Under the pieces are notes generated by a model, which had not been told where the DNA came from, ran no database searches, and saw only the letters and a program-made list of their open reading frames with translations. Below, one piece after another: positions 2,451 through 50,955 of a stretch of DNA of 64,000 bases. A program made the position numbers and the translations under genes. The DNA is taken from positions 1 to 64,000 of IMG/VR virus record IMGVR_UViG_3300027730_001702; one strand, written 5' to 3'. Positions within the stretch are counted from its first letter, which is position 1, and every line of letters starts with the position of its first letter. This DNA comes from a virus.

Positions 2451-2503
2451 ATCATTATATACTATATAAATATAAAGTTAATAAATTATTTATAACTAAA
2501 GTT

Positions 2504-2590
2504 CGGAACGAGTAGGATTTGAACCTACGGATGGAGTTAACCATCGGAAGTTTAGTAAACTTCTGCTTTAGACCACTCAGCCATCGTTCC
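2504..2590 (-). tRNA. tRNA-Ser with anticodon ACU
   Basis: All arms are visible on the minus strand: a perfect 7-bp acceptor stem (GGAACGA/TCGTTCC), a three-bp D stem typical of serine tRNAs, an anticodon stem GAAGT/ACTTC with loop TTACTAA, a long variable arm (GATGG/CCATC) and a T arm GTAGG-TTCAAAT-CCTAC. The long variable arm and D loop identify the serine class. Loop positions 3-5 read ACT, giving an A34 anticodon for AGU; bacterial tRNAs for AGY normally have G34 (GCU). CCA is not encoded. Confidence 0.9.
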
Positions 2591-2605
2591 ATAATACTTT
2601 TTCTC

Positions 2606-2677
2606 CTGCCTAACTAGGATTTGAACCTAGAACATCTTCATTAACAGTGAAGCGCACTACCGTTGTGCTATTAGGCA
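2606..2677 (-). tRNA. tRNA-Asn (GUU)
   Basis: The minus strand folds into a complete cloverleaf: acceptor stem TGCCTAA/TTAGGCA, anticodon stem CTTCA/TGAAG enclosing CTGTTAA (anticodon GTT), and T arm CTAGG-TTCAAAT-CCTAG. It lies 15 bases from tRNA-Ser and right after the FMN-reductase gene, so the two tRNAs are probably processed from one transcript. CCA is not encoded. Confidence 0.93.
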
Positions 2678-2680
2678 AAA

Positions 2681-11287: not shown

Positions 11288-14083
11288 TTAGTTTATCAAA
11301 GCCTTTAAACTTCCAGTTTCTTGAACTAAATTATATATTAAATTAATTTTTTCTTTATTTTCATCACTTGTAAGAATATTTATTGATCCGCTAATGATTG
11401 GAGATGTGTAATATTTAAATTTATTTTGAAAATTATTTAAAGTATTAATTTTATTGATTTTATTTCCTGCGTAAGCTGAATATTTATCTCCATAATATAG
11501 ATTATTTGGAATGTGACTAGCAGAAATTGTATAAATTCTCACAGTTGGTTTTGTATAGCCAGTTATAGGAAATAGCACGAGTAAATTTCCTGAAGTATAA
11601 GATCCACTTTGCCTTAATTCTCCGCTGGATTCTGTATATGATATTGCCTGTCCAACATATTCGTTTAATCCTGAGCCATATATACTATTGCCTGTATAAA
11701 AATAAAATCCAGTATATTCTGTTGATACTAATAATTTATAATCTATATTATTTTCAAGATATAGTTGCGGATACTTTTCATTTGAAAAATTATAATAAAA
11801 TTTTGCTCCAGATCTTTGTGCGCTAATCGTACTTGATGAAACAACTTGATTTCCTATAATTGGATTTAGAATTTCTTGAATTAAATTTTCTCCAGTAACA
11901 AAAAGTTTACCAGAAACTGGATTTTCAGAAGCAGAGAAATATTCAATCTTTGGCGTTGGATGATTTGGTATATAAAATTGAAGAAGTCTATAATTACCAC
12001 TTATTTTATTAAAATTTGGAGTTGTGATTTTCAATTCAGAAATATCTCCTTTAACTGCTAGTGGTCTAATTTCAGTTAAATTTGTTTGTAATAAGTTATA
12101 TGTATAGCCATTCTTTAAGATTAGTTCGCTTAAATTTTTCTCAAGGTTAGCTACTGTATCATAAAATTTATAACCAGTATAAGTGGCTCCACTTATAAAA
12201 TTAACTGATACATAATGTTGTTTTGCGTCTGCTGAATTAAAAATTGGTAAAACGTCCGTATTTAATTTAAATAATAAATCTAATTGAACTGCTCCAGTAA
12301 ATGGGTTAAATGTATTTTTTGTAGAAATAACTGAATCATTTTGTCCAGAGAAAAGCCCAGAAAAACCTTGGTTATATTTAAAATATTGTCTGTCGCTGTT
12401 TAAATAGTAGAGTCCATCTCCGCTTGATGATATTTTTATATTTGTTTGTGCTTGGTATGTGGGATGACTATATATTCCAGATTGAAGTTTTAATTTTAAA
12501 TTAGATCTTTCGGCTTCTATGTTTTTTCCAGTAGCATATAATGTTAATCCAAATATTTTTGAATCTATTGGACTGTTATTTATTAATATTTTTCCATTAA
12601 TATCATAATTAATATTTGATCCAGTTTTTTGCATTGGTAAAAAGTTATTACCTTTTTTAGCAAAATAAAAATAATCATCTGCTAATAGTCTATTATTGTT
12701 AGATATAATACTAAGGGTTGAGTTTATGTATTTTTTTGAGGCCAAGAAATTTAATTTACCATTGATAAGCATTGTTCCAGTTACTTCGTTTAATATTAAA
12801 GCTCCTGTATTTGTATATAATTTTGTACCATTTGGTAAAGTAGTGAATGTATTTCTTCCAGATGTTAAGTAATTATTTTTATAATGAACTGTTATACTAG
12901 AGTTTTTTCCAACAGTATAATATTTAACTAATTGCCCAGATAAATTTGTATTATCTGGATAATAAAAACTTGTTTCTTTATAACCTTGATCTACAATATC
13001 AATTAAAGAATTTTGAGAACTGAGATAAAAATTCTTTGGAATATCGCCAGTATTGAATATTGCAAAATCATATATCTCTTCGTCATTTAATGTACCAGAC
13101 TGATTAAGATTAAAATTATTATTATATAATTTATATAATCCTGTATTTTTAGGTTGAAAATATGGGCCATAACCTAGTGATAATACTTTTGGCGAGTTTC
13201 CTGTTGGTTTCCAATATACAGAGCCAGAAAAAGCAAAAATTCTATATTTTACAAGATCATTTTTATTTGTTGCATAAGGATTATGAAATTGTGAATTTTT
13301 TTGTCCAATAATATTTGTATAAACAAAAGTACACTTATTTTGAATGCACCAATCAATGTTTGGTATATTGTCTTGCAAATATACTTTATTATAAGTTATT
13401 GCTCTTCCAGTTTGTGTACCAGATTCTGCGCCCTGAACATAATAATCTGCTCTTTCTTGTGAAAAACCTAATTTTTGTAAATCTTTTCTTGTATAAAAAT
13501 TTCTACCTACAGAACCTATTTGATATCCACTATGATCTATAAGTTCATATACGTTTTTATATGGGGAGATAAATGGCTTAGTAATCGGATCGTTCAATGA
13601 ACAGTAGCCACATATTCTAAATTTTTCTCCAGAAGATAAACCGTCAGGATATTCGTCAGGTTTACCATATGGAATTCCGCGGCTATCTTCAAAATTTGCT
13701 GTTAAAACTCTATCTAAGCAGTAGCCTTGTTCATTTTGTGTTGAATATGGCAGTTCACCAGTTGGAAAAAAAGTTTTTGAACCAAATTTTATTCTTATTC
13801 CTGTGTTCCTGTAGTTTTGCATCCATCCAGATTCATACCACAATGAATTATATTTTTCTTTTCTTAAGCTAACAAGTTTATTCAAATAATTTTGATTTGT
13901 TCTTTTTGAAATGGATTCTCCTAGATTAATTGGAGATAATTCGACTAAATTTTTAAAATTACTATCTAAAAATCTGGGATCGGTAAATTTAGCGTATAAA
14001 TTGTTATTTGCCGCAGCAGAATCCAAATCTATTGCTTTGATTGTTTGGTTGAAACCTTTTCTATAACCAGTAATTTTGTTCAT
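11288..14083 (-). CDS. Large virion-like structural protein, 931 aa
   Basis: A 931-residue protein rich in Asn, Tyr, Ser, Gly and Thr with long stretches of predicted beta structure and no enzymatic motif. The N-terminal 250 residues are less repetitive (YRKGFNQTIKAIDLDSAAANN, with several Cys), and the rest looks like repeated beta domains with TG and SG turns (NTGALILNEVTGTMLING). This is typical of tail fibres or baseplate proteins. AAGTGTAATTC lies 11 bases before the start, and a strong terminator lies upstream, isolating the gene from purA transcription. Confidence 0.65.
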   Translation of the reverse strand: MNKITGYRKGFNQTIKAIDLDSAAANNNLYAKFTDPRFLDSNFKNLVELSPINLGESISKRTNQNYLNKLVSLRKEKYNSLWYESGWMQNYRNTGIRIKFGSKTFFPTGELPYSTQNEQGYCLDRVLTANFEDSRGIPYGKPDEYPDGLSSGEKFRICGYCSLNDPITKPFISPYKNVYELIDHSGYQIGSVGRNFYTRKDLQKLGFSQERADYYVQGAESGTQTGRAITYNKVYLQDNIPNIDWCIQNKCTFVYTNIIGQKNSQFHNPYATNKNDLVKYRIFAFSGSVYWKPTGNSPKVLSLGYGPYFQPKNTGLYKLYNNNFNLNQSGTLNDEEIYDFAIFNTGDIPKNFYLSSQNSLIDIVDQGYKETSFYYPDNTNLSGQLVKYYTVGKNSSITVHYKNNYLTSGRNTFTTLPNGTKLYTNTGALILNEVTGTMLINGKLNFLASKKYINSTLSIISNNNRLLADDYFYFAKKGNNFLPMQKTGSNINYDINGKILINNSPIDSKIFGLTLYATGKNIEAERSNLKLKLQSGIYSHPTYQAQTNIKISSSGDGLYYLNSDRQYFKYNQGFSGLFSGQNDSVISTKNTFNPFTGAVQLDLLFKLNTDVLPIFNSADAKQHYVSVNFISGATYTGYKFYDTVANLEKNLSELILKNGYTYNLLQTNLTEIRPLAVKGDISELKITTPNFNKISGNYRLLQFYIPNHPTPKIEYFSASENPVSGKLFVTGENLIQEILNPIIGNQVVSSSTISAQRSGAKFYYNFSNEKYPQLYLENNIDYKLLVSTEYTGFYFYTGNSIYGSGLNEYVGQAISYTESSGELRQSGSYTSGNLLVLFPITGYTKPTVRIYTISASHIPNNLYYGDKYSAYAGNKINKINTLNNFQNKFKYYTSPIISGSINILTSDENKEKINLIYNLVQETGSLKALIN

Positions 14084-14094
14084 ATAACTATTTC

Positions 14095-14105
14095 GAATTA
14101 CACTT
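14095..14105 (-). promoter_or_regulatory. Candidate late-type promoter motif AAGTGTAATTC
   Basis: The motif lies between a terminator and the ATG of the 931-residue virion-like gene, with no consensus -35 box. The same AxGTGTAAT pattern precedes several other genes in the window (for example 50256-50266 and 25444-25454). Confidence 0.35.
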
Positions 14106-14111
14106 AAAAAT

Positions 14112-14146
14112 AAAAAATGCGAGAATTAATAACTCTCGCATTTTTA
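14112..14146. terminator. Bidirectional intrinsic terminator
   Basis: ATGCGAGA (14117-14124) pairs with TCTCGCAT (14134-14141) around a 9-base loop, extended by an A-run on one side and a T-run on the other, so a stable hairpin followed by U residues forms in either direction. It would end transcription coming out of the purA and intron region before the virion-like gene. Confidence 0.9.
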
Positions 14147-14279
14147 TATTCTTTTTTATTAGTTTGGCCCCGTTTTTGTCTGGTCCTTCTGTTGCTCTTT
14201 TGTATCTTTGTAGACGCATATACTTCATCAAAGAAAAAGCCTTATTACCAGATTGATCTTTCGCTTCTGTACAAATGAT

Positions 14280-14556
14280 CTAAACCTTCTCATTTTAAGT
14301 TATTTTCTCAAAATTTATATTGAGAAACTCGATATTGCTATCGAGATCGGACTATATCTTGCTTACTAACTTTCGTTAGTAAGACTGGGCGCTCGTGTCT
14401 CTGTTATTGTTGCGGTAACTCAAGAGTTAGTCTCTACACCTTCATGCTTCGTTTTTACCGCGAAGCAAGCTTGGCTCGGTATGATCCACTTGGGACTTCC
14501 ACCGAATTCACCCAGTATGGCCAGTTTTATTTTTAAAGAACTAAAACTAGTTACAC
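14280..14556 (-). ncRNA. Group I intron catalytic core
   Basis: On the minus strand the helices of a group I intron appear in order. P1-like: AGTTTTA/TAAAACT (14521-14550). P3: ACTGGG (14511-14516) with CCCAGT (14384-14389). P4/P6 region with ACCGAGCCAAGC. P7: AGACTA (14428-14433) with TAGTCC (14349-14354). P8: a perfect 9-bp hairpin with GAAA loop (14362-14383). P9: CTCGATA-GCAA-TATCGAG (14328-14345). AAGATATAGTCC at P7 is classic. Extra hairpins between P7 and P3 suggest subgroup IA. It follows purA; no 5' exon is recognisable. A 63-codon open frame (14088-14279, containing TEAKDQSGNKAFSLMKYM) follows and could be a 3' exon. Confidence 0.85.
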
Positions 14557-14576: not shown

Positions 14577-15572
14577 TTATATATTAGCTGTATCGCCAGA
14601 AAATATTATTTCACAATATTTTTTTAATTTTTTTGAAATAAACTCTTTCATGTCTTTGAAGTCGTCAAATTTTATAAAATTTGTGTTTTCTTTCTTATTA
14701 TCAAACTTAATTTTAAATATTTTTAATTTCTCTAGAATATCACATTTATTAATAATTAGCCTTGTCACTCCAGATTTTTTAATTGCGTATTCTAATTTAG
14801 TTAAATCTAACCAGTTGGCTATCCTTTTTCTTCCTGTGGTTGTGCCATATTCTTTCCCCACTTCTATAACTTGATTAAGTTCATTATCTAGTAGTAATGA
14901 TTCTGGAAATAATGGATCTACTCCGCTTTTAGTATCATATATTTTAGCAACACCAATAATGTCTCTTATCTTTTTAGGACTAAAGCCCAATGAGCAAGCA
15001 GAGTAAGGTAATGTTTCGCTGCTTGTTACATATGGATAATTTCCATAATTTAAATCTAACCAAAAACTTTGAGCGCCTTCACAAAGTATGTTTCCATTAA
15101 GCTCGCCATCCCAAATATATTTTTTATCTAAATAATATTTAGCCAGTTTTCCTGTTCTTAATGCTTTATCTGCATAACATGGTGCAATTCCTTGTCCAGT
15201 TGTCCCTAGTTTAGGTTTTAAAAATTTAAGATCATATTCAATGTGTCTTTGAGTAATGATATGAGCTTTTGGGCTAACTTTAATTAAAGAAGTATCAAAA
15301 CCTTCGTTATCTAAGTACTCTATTTCGTCAAAAAATTTATCAATATTAATGACACAATTTGGACCTATTATGCTAGTTTTATTTTGGAAAACTCCGCAAG
15401 GAATAATATGAGTTTTATATTTTTTATCATTAATATAAACTGTATGCCCTGCGTTTGGCCCACCATTCCAACGACAAACGATATCATAATTTTTAGATAT
15501 TGCATTACTTATCTTGCCTTTTCCTTCATCTCCCCAACATAAACCAAAAATAACATCAACTGCTTTTATCAT
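14577..15572 (-). CDS. purA: Adenylosuccinate synthetase family protein, copy 1
   Basis: The 331-residue protein has the PurA signatures: GLCWGDEGKGK (catalytic Asp15), WNGGPNAGHTVY (catalytic His43), LGTTGQGIAPCYADKALR and the aspartate loop TTTGRKRIANWLD near residue 243. PurA joins aspartate to IMP with GTP to give adenylosuccinate. Bacterial PurA is about 430 residues, so this is the short form seen in phages and archaea. The catalytic Asp is retained, unlike the PurZ enzymes of 2-aminoadenine phages. It overlaps the SEC-C-like gene and lies downstream of guaB/guaC. A paralogue lies at 25828. Confidence 0.9.
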   Translation of the reverse strand: MIKAVDVIFGLCWGDEGKGKISNAISKNYDIVCRWNGGPNAGHTVYINDKKYKTHIIPCGVFQNKTSIIGPNCVINIDKFFDEIEYLDNEGFDTSLIKVSPKAHIITQRHIEYDLKFLKPKLGTTGQGIAPCYADKALRTGKLAKYYLDKKYIWDGELNGNILCEGAQSFWLDLNYGNYPYVTSSETLPYSACSLGFSPKKIRDIIGVAKIYDTKSGVDPLFPESLLLDNELNQVIEVGKEYGTTTGRKRIANWLDLTKLEYAIKKSGVTRLIINKCDILEKLKIFKIKFDNKKENTNFIKFDDFKDMKEFISKKLKKYCEIIFSGDTANI

Positions 15573-15798
15573 CTTTAGGTTTTTCTCTTAACTCATTAAC
15601 GTAATTTTCTAAATTTTCTTTTGCTTTATTGCAAAAATCCTGTCCAGAAGCACCACAGCAATTCTTAAATTTTTTTAATGATAATGGGCACATACTATTT
15701 CTAGATATTTTTGGTAATACTCTTACGACTGGAGAAAATGGAGTTGCCCTCGCGTAAGGATTATGATTTAATGAAATTTTATTAGATTCTTGTTCCAT
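15556..15798 (-). CDS. SEC-C-like zinc-binding small protein, copy 1
   Basis: The 80-residue protein has SRNSMCPLSLKKFKNCCGA, a SEC-C-type zinc knuckle (normally RN-CPCGSGKKYKNCCG) in which the second Cys of the first pair is replaced. A conserved upstream piece, YARATPFSPVVRVLPKI, recurs in the paralogue at 27375 (YARATEFSPIVRIYPKI). SEC-C modules bind zinc and mediate protein contacts. It overlaps purA by 17 bases and lies downstream of an exported-protein gene. Role unknown. Confidence 0.7.
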   Translation of the reverse strand: MEQESNKISLNHNPYARATPFSPVVRVLPKISRNSMCPLSLKKFKNCCGASGQDFCNKAKENLENYVNELREKPKDDKSS

Positions 15799-15803
15799 AT
15801 TTT

Positions 15804-16190
15804 TTATCTCGCTGGTTGTGGTTTTGGTCTTAACTGATTATACATTTGATTGTATTTATTCACATCTTCAATTTTATTAGCATCCATAATAAGGAAAGCT
15901 TTTTGACCTAATCTAAAATTTTCATTTTCCTTCGCAGAAATGACTCCTTGCATTCTTGATCTTAATTTCGAATCTTGTGTTAATGATAGACTATTTTTTT
16001 GCTCTTGCAATAATTTGTTGTATCTTTTATTAGATTCTATTTGAGTCTTAACAATATGATATTCTGCTCCGCGAGTTACATCATCGTACTTCTGATAAGT
16101 CGTTTGAGCTTTAGAGCCAGAGATAGTTATAATTAAAGCTAAAATAGCTAAAATAATTGATTTAATATTTTTATAATTTACCATGTGCAA
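15804..16190 (-). CDS. Exported protein with signal peptide
   Basis: The N-terminus (start at 16190, or more likely 16184: MVNYKNIKSI...) is a Sec signal peptide with core ILAILALIITISGSKA and a probable cut before QTTYQK. The mature part is a charged, mostly helical domain (YHIVKTQIESNKRYNKLLQEQ) with a proline-rich end. Its start overlaps the end of the guaB-like gene. It probably acts in the periplasm; function unknown. Confidence 0.65.
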   Translation of the reverse strand: MHMVNYKNIKSIILAILALIITISGSKAQTTYQKYDDVTRGAEYHIVKTQIESNKRYNKLLQEQKNSLSLTQDSKLRSRMQGVISAKENENFRLGQKAFLIMDANKIEDVNKYNQMYNQLRPKPQPAR

Positions 16191-17271
16191 ATCCCTCGTA
16201 CATGCTATTAGGACTATTTTTAACTGCTGTAATTTTATCTGTCCATAATCCTCCTCGCATATCTTTCATATTTCTAAAGCCTAAATAACTCATCGCGCTT
16301 CTTAAGCCGTTAGCAAAATCATAAACTATATCTTCTATTGATTTATCAAATAGTGGGATTAAAGTGTTATCTCCTTCTACAAATAAATTCTTTTTTGTTC
16401 CATCATGGAGTTCGTAATCTTCTACTACATCTTTACTAGCCATTCCTCTGTACTTTGCATATCTTATTCCATTTTTTTCAATTATATCTTCTTCATCAAC
16501 TATATCTGATAATCCAGCGAAAATTCTTCCACAAATAACTGCGTCACAGCCACTTGCTATAGCTTTAACTAAATCTTTCGGATATCGAATACCTCCGTCA
16601 GCTAAAATACTCGGTCTATGTTCTGGATTTGGTTTATCTTGCTTAAATAAATCTACTTGAGAAAGTTCCCAATTTCTTACGGCTTTCCAAGCGTAATAAT
16701 TTCCAGTTAAACTTGGGCAACCTATTCCTGTTTTGACTTGAGTTAAACACATTGATCCTGGACCGATTAAATGTCTAAATCCATCCGCTTTTAAATTAGC
16801 TAGTCTATAAACGCTTTCTTTTGTTAATGTATTACCAACAATAATGTCTTGAGAAAATCCAGCTGTTTTAAACCACCTAAGAAAATCTTCTACATTTTTA
16901 GCTAAACCATTTGCTGTATCAAGAAAATAAATATCAGTATAAGTACTTGTCTGTCTTATTCTTTCTTCGGCATCTTTTAATCCAATTGCGTTTATAGAAA
17001 ATCCGCTTTCATCTTTAATTGTTTTAGATTTAGATCTTTGATCATCGATACTCATAAATCGATGCAGTACTCCAGCCGCGCCAATTTTATTCATTTTGAT
17101 ACAAGATTTAACAGTTGATACTGTATCCATTGGAGATAATATCAATGGAATTTTTATATAGTTTTTTCTTGAAATCTTTGCTGTTGTATCTATTTCTTTT
17201 CTAGACGAAATGTCTGAAAAATTTGGTAGTAGTGATATATCGTCGTAACTTAAAGCTTCAACAAATCTCAT
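16171..17271 (-). CDS. IMP dehydrogenase / GMP reductase family enzyme
   Basis: The 366-residue TIM barrel has LSYDDISLLPNFSDI, SPMDTV, the catalytic-loop segment GPGSMCLTQVKTGIGCP (Cys nucleophile), ILADGGIRYPKDLVKA, CGRIFAG and YRGMASK. There is no CBS insert, and the length and KTGIG loop are closer to GMP reductase (GuaC) than to ordinary IMPDH, though motifs alone leave both open. GMP reductase makes IMP from GMP; IMPDH makes XMP from IMP. Upstream of purA, the former would feed adenylate synthesis. A TTGACT-N17-TATCAT promoter fixes the start. Confidence 0.85.
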   Translation of the reverse strand: MRFVEALSYDDISLLPNFSDISSRKEIDTTAKISRKNYIKIPLILSPMDTVSTVKSCIKMNKIGAAGVLHRFMSIDDQRSKSKTIKDESGFSINAIGLKDAEERIRQTSTYTDIYFLDTANGLAKNVEDFLRWFKTAGFSQDIIVGNTLTKESVYRLANLKADGFRHLIGPGSMCLTQVKTGIGCPSLTGNYYAWKAVRNWELSQVDLFKQDKPNPEHRPSILADGGIRYPKDLVKAIASGCDAVICGRIFAGLSDIVDEEDIIEKNGIRYAKYRGMASKDVVEDYELHDGTKKNLFVEGDNTLIPLFDKSIEDIVYDFANGLRSAMSYLGFRNMKDMRGGLWTDKITAVKNSPNSMYEGFAHGKL

Positions 17272-29903: not shown

Positions 29904-29931
29904 GTGTAAGCTAGGTTAGTTCTTTCTTATT

Positions 29932-30317
29932 GGGCCCGTACTGGTTTCGATTTTAGAGATACGAATTAAAATGCAAGTGGAGGTTGAATCGTGGACTCCT
30001 TAAAAAGTTTCACTTATATTAACTGCCAAAAAAGCAAAATATAAAGGTCACATTTCAGCAAGAGTTTCTCTTGTTGAGCTGACCGCTTCTGTAGCTTAAG
30101 TTACAGCGTGATACCCTTGAAGCATCTATTGGGATATTGCGTAATTAGATGTTTGATTATAAAGAGTTTTTTTATTCTTTTTATACTCAATATTAAAAAT
30201 AAAATCGCTAAGTATGTTTGTTGTTTATCTATATAAAGCTAAAAACAAAAACGACTAAACTTGTAGTATTTTAATTTAAATTTTTAAAAGACAGAGGTTC
30301 AATTCCTCTCGGGTCCA
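29932..30317 (+). ncRNA. ssrA: Transfer-messenger RNA (tmRNA)
   Basis: The ends form the tRNA-like half: GGGCCCG (29932-29938) pairs with CGGGTCC (30310-30316), the T arm AGAGG-TTCAATT-CCTCT precedes it, and TGGTTTCGA near the 5' end is the conserved tmRNA segment. A resume codon GCC follows TTAACT, giving a 24-residue tag that starts AKKAKYKG and ends ELTASVA, with its TAA in the loop of CTGTA/TACAG just as the E. coli tag stop sits in a hairpin loop. tmRNA rescues stalled ribosomes and tags nascent chains for proteolysis. The final SVA replaces the usual LAA. CCA is not encoded. Confidence 0.93.
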
Positions 30318-49419: not shown

Positions 49420-50250
49420 TTAAGTTATGACTAAAGCGCTTCTAGTTCCAGGAACATCAGTAACACAGCCGCCAGTTGAATCAAATCTTTTATACATAGG
49501 TATAGAAACTGTAGTTTTATCTATTTTTATTGACATATTATCTTGACCAACTAATTCAGTATTAACACAAGTTTGTTCATAAGACGAAAAAGTAGTATTA
49601 TAAGTTCCATAAAGCATTAAAAATGATGGATAAAAATAGTAATCATTTCCTTCTTTTATATAATATTGATAAACTGGAACTTCAGGAGGATTAACACCGC
49701 AAATATCTTGATACATATTAAAGAAAAAACCAGCTAAAAAAAGATCGTAGAAACTTACGTCCGTAAGGCAAACTGACGGACTACTGCCTGACGCATATTT
49801 ATACGTGAGTTTAAGATTATAAATTAATGATCTTTGCTTTTTACAAACAAGCTCTTTGTCTTGCTTGACATACCTTTCATATTTATTCTTTTTATAATCA
49901 TGAATTGCTAATGGAGAGCAGCTACCGCAGCTTCCAACTTCTATGTGGTTCAATGTCTGGGTAAAATCTTTACTTTGCCAATATAGCCACATAGCATCTT
50001 TTAATGATAATTTTATAGGATTAAGAGTTCCACCTCCCACTAAAGAAGTATCTTCTGTAAATTCCCAACAAAATGGAAATGCTCCAACTTTACCATCTGA
50101 ATCTGTAATAGGGCATCCTTCATCTGTAGTTGGAGTTTTTAAAGAGCAAGCGCAATCTTTTAATTCATCGTCGCTTCCAGCATCTATCTCTTTAAGAATA
50201 CTCTTAAGGTAATCTGGATAATTATTTGGCTCTGTTAGGGCGCATGGCAT
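49420..50250 (-). CDS. MPCALTEP-module protein A, virion-like
   Basis: The 276-residue protein has an N-terminal module of about 95 residues (MPCALTEPNNYPDYLKSILK, DDELKDCACSL, TDEGCPITDSDGKVGAFPFC, LKDAMWLYWQSKDF) shared with the gene just upstream and with a fragment at 26958. The rest is a separate beta-rich domain with Cys. A constant N-terminus with changing C-termini is how phage tail proteins hold exchangeable receptor-binding tips; that role is inference. AAGTGTAATTT lies 5 bases before the ATG. Confidence 0.65.
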   Translation of the reverse strand: MPCALTEPNNYPDYLKSILKEIDAGSDDELKDCACSLKTPTTDEGCPITDSDGKVGAFPFCWEFTEDTSLVGGGTLNPIKLSLKDAMWLYWQSKDFTQTLNHIEVGSCGSCSPLAIHDYKKNKYERYVKQDKELVCKKQRSLIYNLKLTYKYASGSSPSVCLTDVSFYDLFLAGFFFNMYQDICGVNPPEVPVYQYYIKEGNDYYFYPSFLMLYGTYNTTFSSYEQTCVNTELVGQDNMSIKIDKTTVSIPMYKRFDSTGGCVTDVPGTRSALVIT

Positions 50251-50268
50251 ACTTTAAATTACACTTGA
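50083..50268 (-). repeat. 186-bp direct repeat, copy A
   Basis: Identical to 50770-50955 except for one base, which is the third position of the start codon (ATG here, ATA there). It covers the first ~60 codons of the module plus the promoter motif. Confidence 0.95.
50256..50266 (-). promoter_or_regulatory. Candidate late-type promoter motif AAGTGTAATTT
   Basis: Minus strand motif with the -10-like TAATTT ending 5 bases before the ATG at 50250. The same bases recur at 50943-50953 before module protein B. No -35 consensus is visible. Confidence 0.4.
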
Positions 50269-50271
50269 TTT

Positions 50272-50937
50272 TTAAAAATTAGCAGTTAATTTGAATGTTG
50301 AGCTTCCCATCGTATGTCTTTGTTCATCAAAACCACCATCATAATTTATATTTTTTCCGTTAAAAGTTCCTTGGTTAGGACCACCAGTAAACCATCGACT
50401 TATCGCATAAAGAGGGTCTGGAGTTGGAGTGTCTACTTCCCATGAAAATTGAACAAATACTGCAATGTCCAAAGAATAAAGGTTTTCCTCTTCATTTTTC
50501 TTTCTTGGATTTGGATATACCTCTACATAACCACCAAGCCCAGGAACTCCTCCAATCTTCTGGTAAACAGCATTAGGACAAACTTTTTCCTTTCCACTGG
50601 TAGATCCAACATAAGGCATTTTAATAGTAAATGATTTAGACTCACCATCATCGTAATTAAAATCAACGTTTAATGTAAAACTCTTCGTTTTCCAATAGAT
50701 TTCCATGATTTCTTTTAATGTAAATAATTGGAGGCCATTATCTTCTATAACAAGACATCCTGGAAAAAGTCCAACTTTACCATCTGAATCTGTAATAGGG
50801 CATCCTTCATCTGTAGTTGGAGTTTTTAAAGAGCAAGCGCAATCTTTTAATTCATCGTCGCTTCCAGCATCTATCTCTTTAAGAATACTCTTAAGGTAAT
50901 CTGGATAATTATTTGGCTCTGTTAGGGCGCATGGTAT
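50272..50937 (-). CDS. MPCALTEP-module protein B with an ATA start codon
   Basis: The frame reads ATA-CCA-TGC... (IPCALTEPNNYPDYLKSILK) from 50937 and continues for 221 codons through the shared module (LKEIMEIYWKTKSF) into a different C-terminal domain (FTIKMPYVGSTSGKEKV, GGFDEQRHTMGSSTFKLTANF). The first internal ATG is at 50706, after the whole module. Thus either ATA initiates, or translation gives only the C-terminal 144 residues, or the gene is silenced. The rest of the frame is intact, so decay, if any, is recent. Confidence 0.6.
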   Translation of the reverse strand: MPCALTEPNNYPDYLKSILKEIDAGSDDELKDCACSLKTPTTDEGCPITDSDGKVGLFPGCLVIEDNGLQLFTLKEIMEIYWKTKSFTLNVDFNYDDGESKSFTIKMPYVGSTSGKEKVCPNAVYQKIGGVPGLGGYVEVYPNPRKKNEEENLYSLDIAVFVQFSWEVDTPTPDPLYAISRWFTGGPNQGTFNGKNINYDGGFDEQRHTMGSSTFKLTANF

Positions 50938-50955
50938 ACTTTAAATTACACTTGA
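50770..50955 (-). repeat. 186-bp direct repeat, copy B
   Basis: Second copy of the repeat at 50083-50268; the only difference is the start-codon base. Direct orientation, 687 bp apart start to start. Confidence 0.95.

Follow-up and report, generated by a model that had tools for sequence, protein, structure and literature searches.

On the minus strand of the DNA analysed here, between a purA gene that ends at 14577 and a gene for a 931-aa protein that starts at 14083, lies a complete group I intron core. This DNA, called the window below, is 64,000 nt long and comprises positions 1 to 64,000 of IMG/VR record IMGVR_UViG_3300027730_001702, a 66-kb uncultivated virus contig in which our own covariance model finds one copy of the ribozyme. 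A focused Rfam scan matched the core to RF00028 (14571-14328, minus strand) at 69.1 bits, where the cut-off is 50, and E=2.6e-17; it was not listed when the whole window was scanned at gathering thresholds with fast filters, and against our own model (R1) it scores 133.9 bits. The first-pass annotation had proposed a complete core, and it was right in this, P3, a guanosine-binding P7, P8 with a GAAA loop and P9 with a GCAA loop all being present, and right also that no recognisable 5' exon, start codon, tRNA or other RNA gene stands upstream of it. As to the other hallmarks of a group I intron, a terminal G before the 3' splice site can be placed, by eye and from conserved context, at 14291, and this copy has C-G in place of the U-G pair expected at the 5' splice site. 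The features are collected in Table 1. Next to the element, phage purA and guaB-like genes occupy 14577-17271 (minus strand); the WGDEGKGK motif of the former presumably marks an ordinary PurA, and in PHROGs the gene is matched to phrog_1211, which bears the name 2-aminooxy adenylosuccinate synthetase. Two phage tRNA genes, one for Ser and one for Asn, stand side by side at 2503-2678 (minus strand).

Table 1. Features of the element and its surroundings, in window coordinates
Feature	Position	Strand	Basis
Promoter-like motif GTGTAAC	14550..14556	-	motif enrichment before ORF starts; spacing to guide
boxA-like AGTTCTTTAA in leader	14533..14542	-	likeness to tmRNA leader and many relatives
Guide (IGS) GGCC, with G at 14522 predicted to pair with the 5' splice site base	14519..14522	-	guide/site pairing analysis
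Group I core, P3 to P9.1	14304..14516	-	RF00028 69.1 bits; own model 133.9 bits; helix coordinates
P3	14516-14509 with 14391-14384	-	pairing
P7	14435-14428 with 14356-14349	-	pairing
P8, GAAA loop	14383-14362	-	pairing
P9, GCAA loop	14345-14328	-	pairing
P9.1	14327-14304	-	pairing
Predicted terminal G of core, 3' splice site after G	14291..14291	-	conserved ATAAC..TG context by eye; family P10 test
Exon predicted to be circularised, 125 nt	14166..14290	-	between reversed splice sites; alignment with L022, L026, L056
5' splice site GGGGCC^AAAC (C-G for U-G), with the cut falling between 14166 and 14165	14162..14171	-	homology to relatives
Terminator-like hairpin with T-run	14112..14147	-	read directly from sequence
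Second GTGTAAT motif, before 931-aa gene	14097..14103	-	sequence reading

A relative of purA is encoded in 72 loci; in L022, L024, L026 and L056 the same ribozyme follows purA directly, and in four more it stands elsewhere in the locus. A scan with a core pattern gave 83 stretches, which were sorted by eye into two classes, canonical introns that have a P1 hairpin upstream (class A) and elements with a promoter-like stretch and a guide, usually TGGCC, and without a 5' exon (class B). This division is our own and not independent. Thirty-nine elements of the second class were analysed. Some upstream helix can be drawn in 22/33 elements of class A and 19/38 of class B, a comparison which discriminates weakly and carries no weight as proof. 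The covariance model has matches in 11/50 records of the purA lineage, some of them fragmentary, with up to four copies per record. One example is L207 (the record of L127), a 147-kb phage record where four matches fall within about 18 kb (94000-113800); three of the four were read by eye, all three fit the permuted pattern described next, and they differ from one another in exon and in downstream gene.

Where, if there is no 5' exon ahead of the core, is the other half of P1? In 36 of 37 non-duplicate elements the guide G sits 9 nt before P3. Taking this position as given, we scanned the 230 nt past the core for a strict complement to the three bases after the guide G, with U next, then A or G, then A, and such a site is present in 33 of 36 elements against 4.8 expected from dinucleotide shuffles, the formal P of 3e-27 being overstated since the elements are related. 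In the 39 related phage elements the downstream site lies 60-179 nt beyond the 3' splice site. A stronger argument for the pairing than the formal P is the covariation: GACC goes with GGUU, GCCC with GGGU, GGGC with GCCU and GGUC with GACU, and guides other than GGCC have their target in 11 of 13 of their own tails compared with 55/429 tails that belong to a different guide. A looser scan that allowed any U was not significant (1629/20000 permutations were as good), because AT-rich tails give spurious pairings, and one requiring AA, GA or TA after the U was equalled in 1/20000; the strict test was designed after these two had been seen, and it is on the strict test that the conclusions rest. 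Since the guide pairs with a site beyond the 3' splice site, the order of the splice sites is reversed. The strict test has three exceptions, and the window copy is among them. Its site, GGGGCC^AAAC, is homologous to GGACT^AAAC in L022 and GGCCT^AAA in L056. A guide-paired 5' splice site beyond the 3' one, established at the level of the family, is represented in this copy by 4 bp with a C-G. Hur and Waring (1995) are said to have reported natural introns with C-G at the 5' splice site.

Ahead of the exon stands a terminal G, with ATAAC..TG as its conserved context. P10, formed by the start of the exon with the bases just before the guide, has a mean of 2.46 bp against 1.28 for all combinations, and 0/20000 permutations were as high, though the 3' splice sites were placed by eye with P10 in mind and the test may be biased by this; in the window copy P10 has 2 bp only. 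Predicted exons are 60-179 nt long. Fourteen of them belong to a subfamily that we call marine-type for convenience, with no habitat assignment meant, and to these a three-helix structure fits in which 17/21 pairs are doubly changed and 91% of cells are paired, the latter falling to 34-40% when partners are slid by 1-3 columns. The ends of this conserved structure pair with each other. Among the four sequences of the window's own subfamily there is one helix with changed letters (TCTGGT/ACCAGA, TCTAGA/TCTAGA, CTATCT/AGATAG), which is suggestive only of a helix being kept in these exons. The core, the reversed splice sites with their covariation and, for the marine-type subfamily, the exon structure are features of the sequences themselves, as is the gene context: in 31/38 elements an ATG follows the 5' splice site at a distance of 2-26 nt, which in 21 of these 31 is no more than 12 nt. 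In the remaining 7/38, the window included, a promoter-like motif intervenes between the 5' splice site and the gene, and in the window there is a terminator-like hairpin in addition. None of the downstream proteins has a named function in PHROGs, and their genes are accordingly not taken here as virion genes.

The promoter-like motif needs some comment. Over the window together with L003-L066, GTGTAA occurs within 60 nt upstream of 69/771 ORF starts where 6.6 would be expected, mostly 13-18 nt before the ATG, a spacing consistent with near-leaderless mRNAs in the phage lineage of the window. Its G is exactly 14 nt ahead of the guide G in six elements, and mostly 28-36 nt before it in elements with a boxA-like leader; if GTGTAA is a -10-like element, the predicted start of transcription is either the guide itself or a point about 20 nt upstream. 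A similar GTGTAA..AGTTCTTT leader precedes the phage tmRNA, the window ribozyme and the ribozymes of many relatives, which suggests that promoter and boxA-like signals are shared by structured RNAs, the boxA reading being one that we take from general knowledge of rRNA leaders. The tmRNA itself is at 29905-30317 of the window (plus strand), with the leader GTGTAA..TTAGTTCTTT resembling that of the ribozyme. A boxA-like GTTCTTTGA is located inside the P5 loop, not in the leader, in L051, L063, L098, L100, L102, L119, L129 and L150. At 49420-50951 of the window (minus strand) a gene start and its GTGTAA motif are partly duplicated in tandem, and in the upstream copy the listed ATG start of the other is replaced by ATA.

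Taken together this makes it probable, at about 0.82, that the window element is a natural group I intron of circularly permuted order, with a ribozyme gene to itself and not a place inside an interrupted gene. The start of the transcript, catalysis, the circle and its role are what we infer by adding known group I chemistry to the sequence. The transcript would begin with the guide or a little upstream of it; the core would fold, and the site past the 3' splice site would pair with the guide and so supply the missing half of P1. Guanosine would then attack the downstream 5' splice site, the RNA beyond being released with a 5' guanosine, and the freed 3' end of the exon would attack the 3' splice site after the terminal G, so that the exon becomes a small RNA circle. 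For most relatives this puts the 5' end of the released RNA 2-26 nt ahead of a start codon. For the window copy, the terminator-like hairpin and second promoter-like motif would uncouple the unit from the next gene, and the circle is therefore the main predicted product. Activity of the window copy is uncertain because of the C-G for U·G at the 5' splice site and because a P1-like hairpin, unconserved, can be drawn upstream. A broader proposal, that permuted group I introns are a family in uncultivated phages, sometimes several per genome, which serve as gene leaders and each yield a trans-acting structured circle while releasing a near-leaderless guanosine-led mRNA, is offered tentatively, as possible rather than probable.

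What else could the element be? The four options of the first-pass annotation did not include a permuted order of splice sites, and the one that came nearest was a free-standing ribozyme. Another of them was a relic whose host gene had been deleted. An inactive remnant of a former intron would accord with the C-G at the splice site and with the uncoupling from the next gene, but the core is intact, and dozens of phage contigs share the arrangement, with covariation across the family, so that this explanation, unlikely overall, could apply at most to the window copy. Somewhat less likely again is ordinary splicing of the window copy into the purA 3' UTR at ACT^AGTTTTA, with the upstream hairpin as P1 and the downstream site decayed. 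The proposed hairpin, CTAGTTTTA/TAAAACTGG, does pair in the window over 9 bp, with a U-G at the expected guide G, only 11/500 shuffles are as good, and the C-G downstream would fit decay. To that extent such a splice, in RNA read through from purA, is possible for this copy. However, 11/500 is the lowest value among 39 elements tested and so near chance, there is a single exon base pair beyond the U-G, the 5' strand of the hairpin overlaps the promoter-like motif, and the hairpin is not shared by the closest relatives, being absent from L022, L056, L104 and L120; the conserved P1 partner of the guide is the downstream site, ending at 14166.

Cleavage at the downstream site alone, setting the 5' end of an mRNA while the exon is left uncircularised, is a shade more improbable still. 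The abutment of the 5' splice site on start codons in the 31 elements mentioned is what it would predict; set against it are the conserved terminal G with the P10 signal, the conserved exon structure with paired ends, and the existence of uncoupled units with a promoter-like motif of their own downstream. Trans-splicing with a distant 5' exon, also suggested earlier, has the missing upstream exon in its favour, and a short guide match leaves other targets possible in principle, but the guide's partner is downstream in cis and guide variants covary with it. Nor did the 63-codon frame beyond the core, considered as a coding 3' exon, prove to be conserved: tblastn against the fetched relatives gave nothing better than E=3.9, no frame matching it is present in L022, L024 or L056, and the coding 3' exon was rejected. 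Trans-splicing is thus given very little credence indeed.

How widely the permuted arrangement is spread can be judged in part from searches of other genomes. Seven bacterial-genome matches to the core pattern, read by eye, look canonical as a set (two of the seven upstream regions are cut short or atypical), and four are in or next to tRNA genes; the guide-plus-P3 pattern had no match in bacterial genomes. In cultured phages DNA searches gave short core matches only, many of them enterobacterial and Pseudomonas, and H101, the sole one whose splice sites were read, by eye, looks canonical. With two of the downstream proteins, tblastn found no cultured relative.

The open-licence literature searched yielded no permuted group I intron of a phage and no natural stand-alone permuted group I family; a 2023 list of natural permuted RNAs names group II introns and not group I. 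If the permuted reading is true, phages make small circular non-coding RNAs by ribozyme and may set mRNA 5' ends by the same means. The many natural variants of guide and exon lend themselves to direct in vitro tests of the mechanism. Class A, the canonical group I introns of phages and bacteria, is close to the permuted elements in its core and differs from them in having an upstream P1 and an interrupted host gene. The lariat-capping (GIR1) ribozyme, compared here by its description in PMC8637638, is a group I descendant that sets the 5' end of a downstream mRNA, as the phage elements may; it does so by one-step branching, whereas the phage elements appear to keep both group I splice sites. 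CP group II ribozymes, known in bacteria (PMC8637638), are likewise natural stand-alone permuted introns with small circles, which in the phage family are predicted, though their chemistry and fold are those of group II and their hosts bacterial rather than phage. The coral mitochondrial ND5-717 group I intron, with permuted splicing that was called the first natural case (PMC6545197), shares with the phage family a natural permuted group I precursor and has a circular RNA intermediate; there, however, the order follows from a circular genome and ND5 exons are joined, whereas the phage element is a compact stand-alone unit with an exon of 60-179 nt. Permuted group I introns are a standard laboratory route to circular RNA, and in the engineered permuted intron-exon (PIE) constructs (Puttaraju and Been 1992, as cited in PMC6545197) the 3' splice site precedes the 5' splice site and a circular exon is expected, just as in the window family. 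In contrast to them the phage family occurs in nature, has a promoter-like leader of its own and carries an exon with conserved structure.
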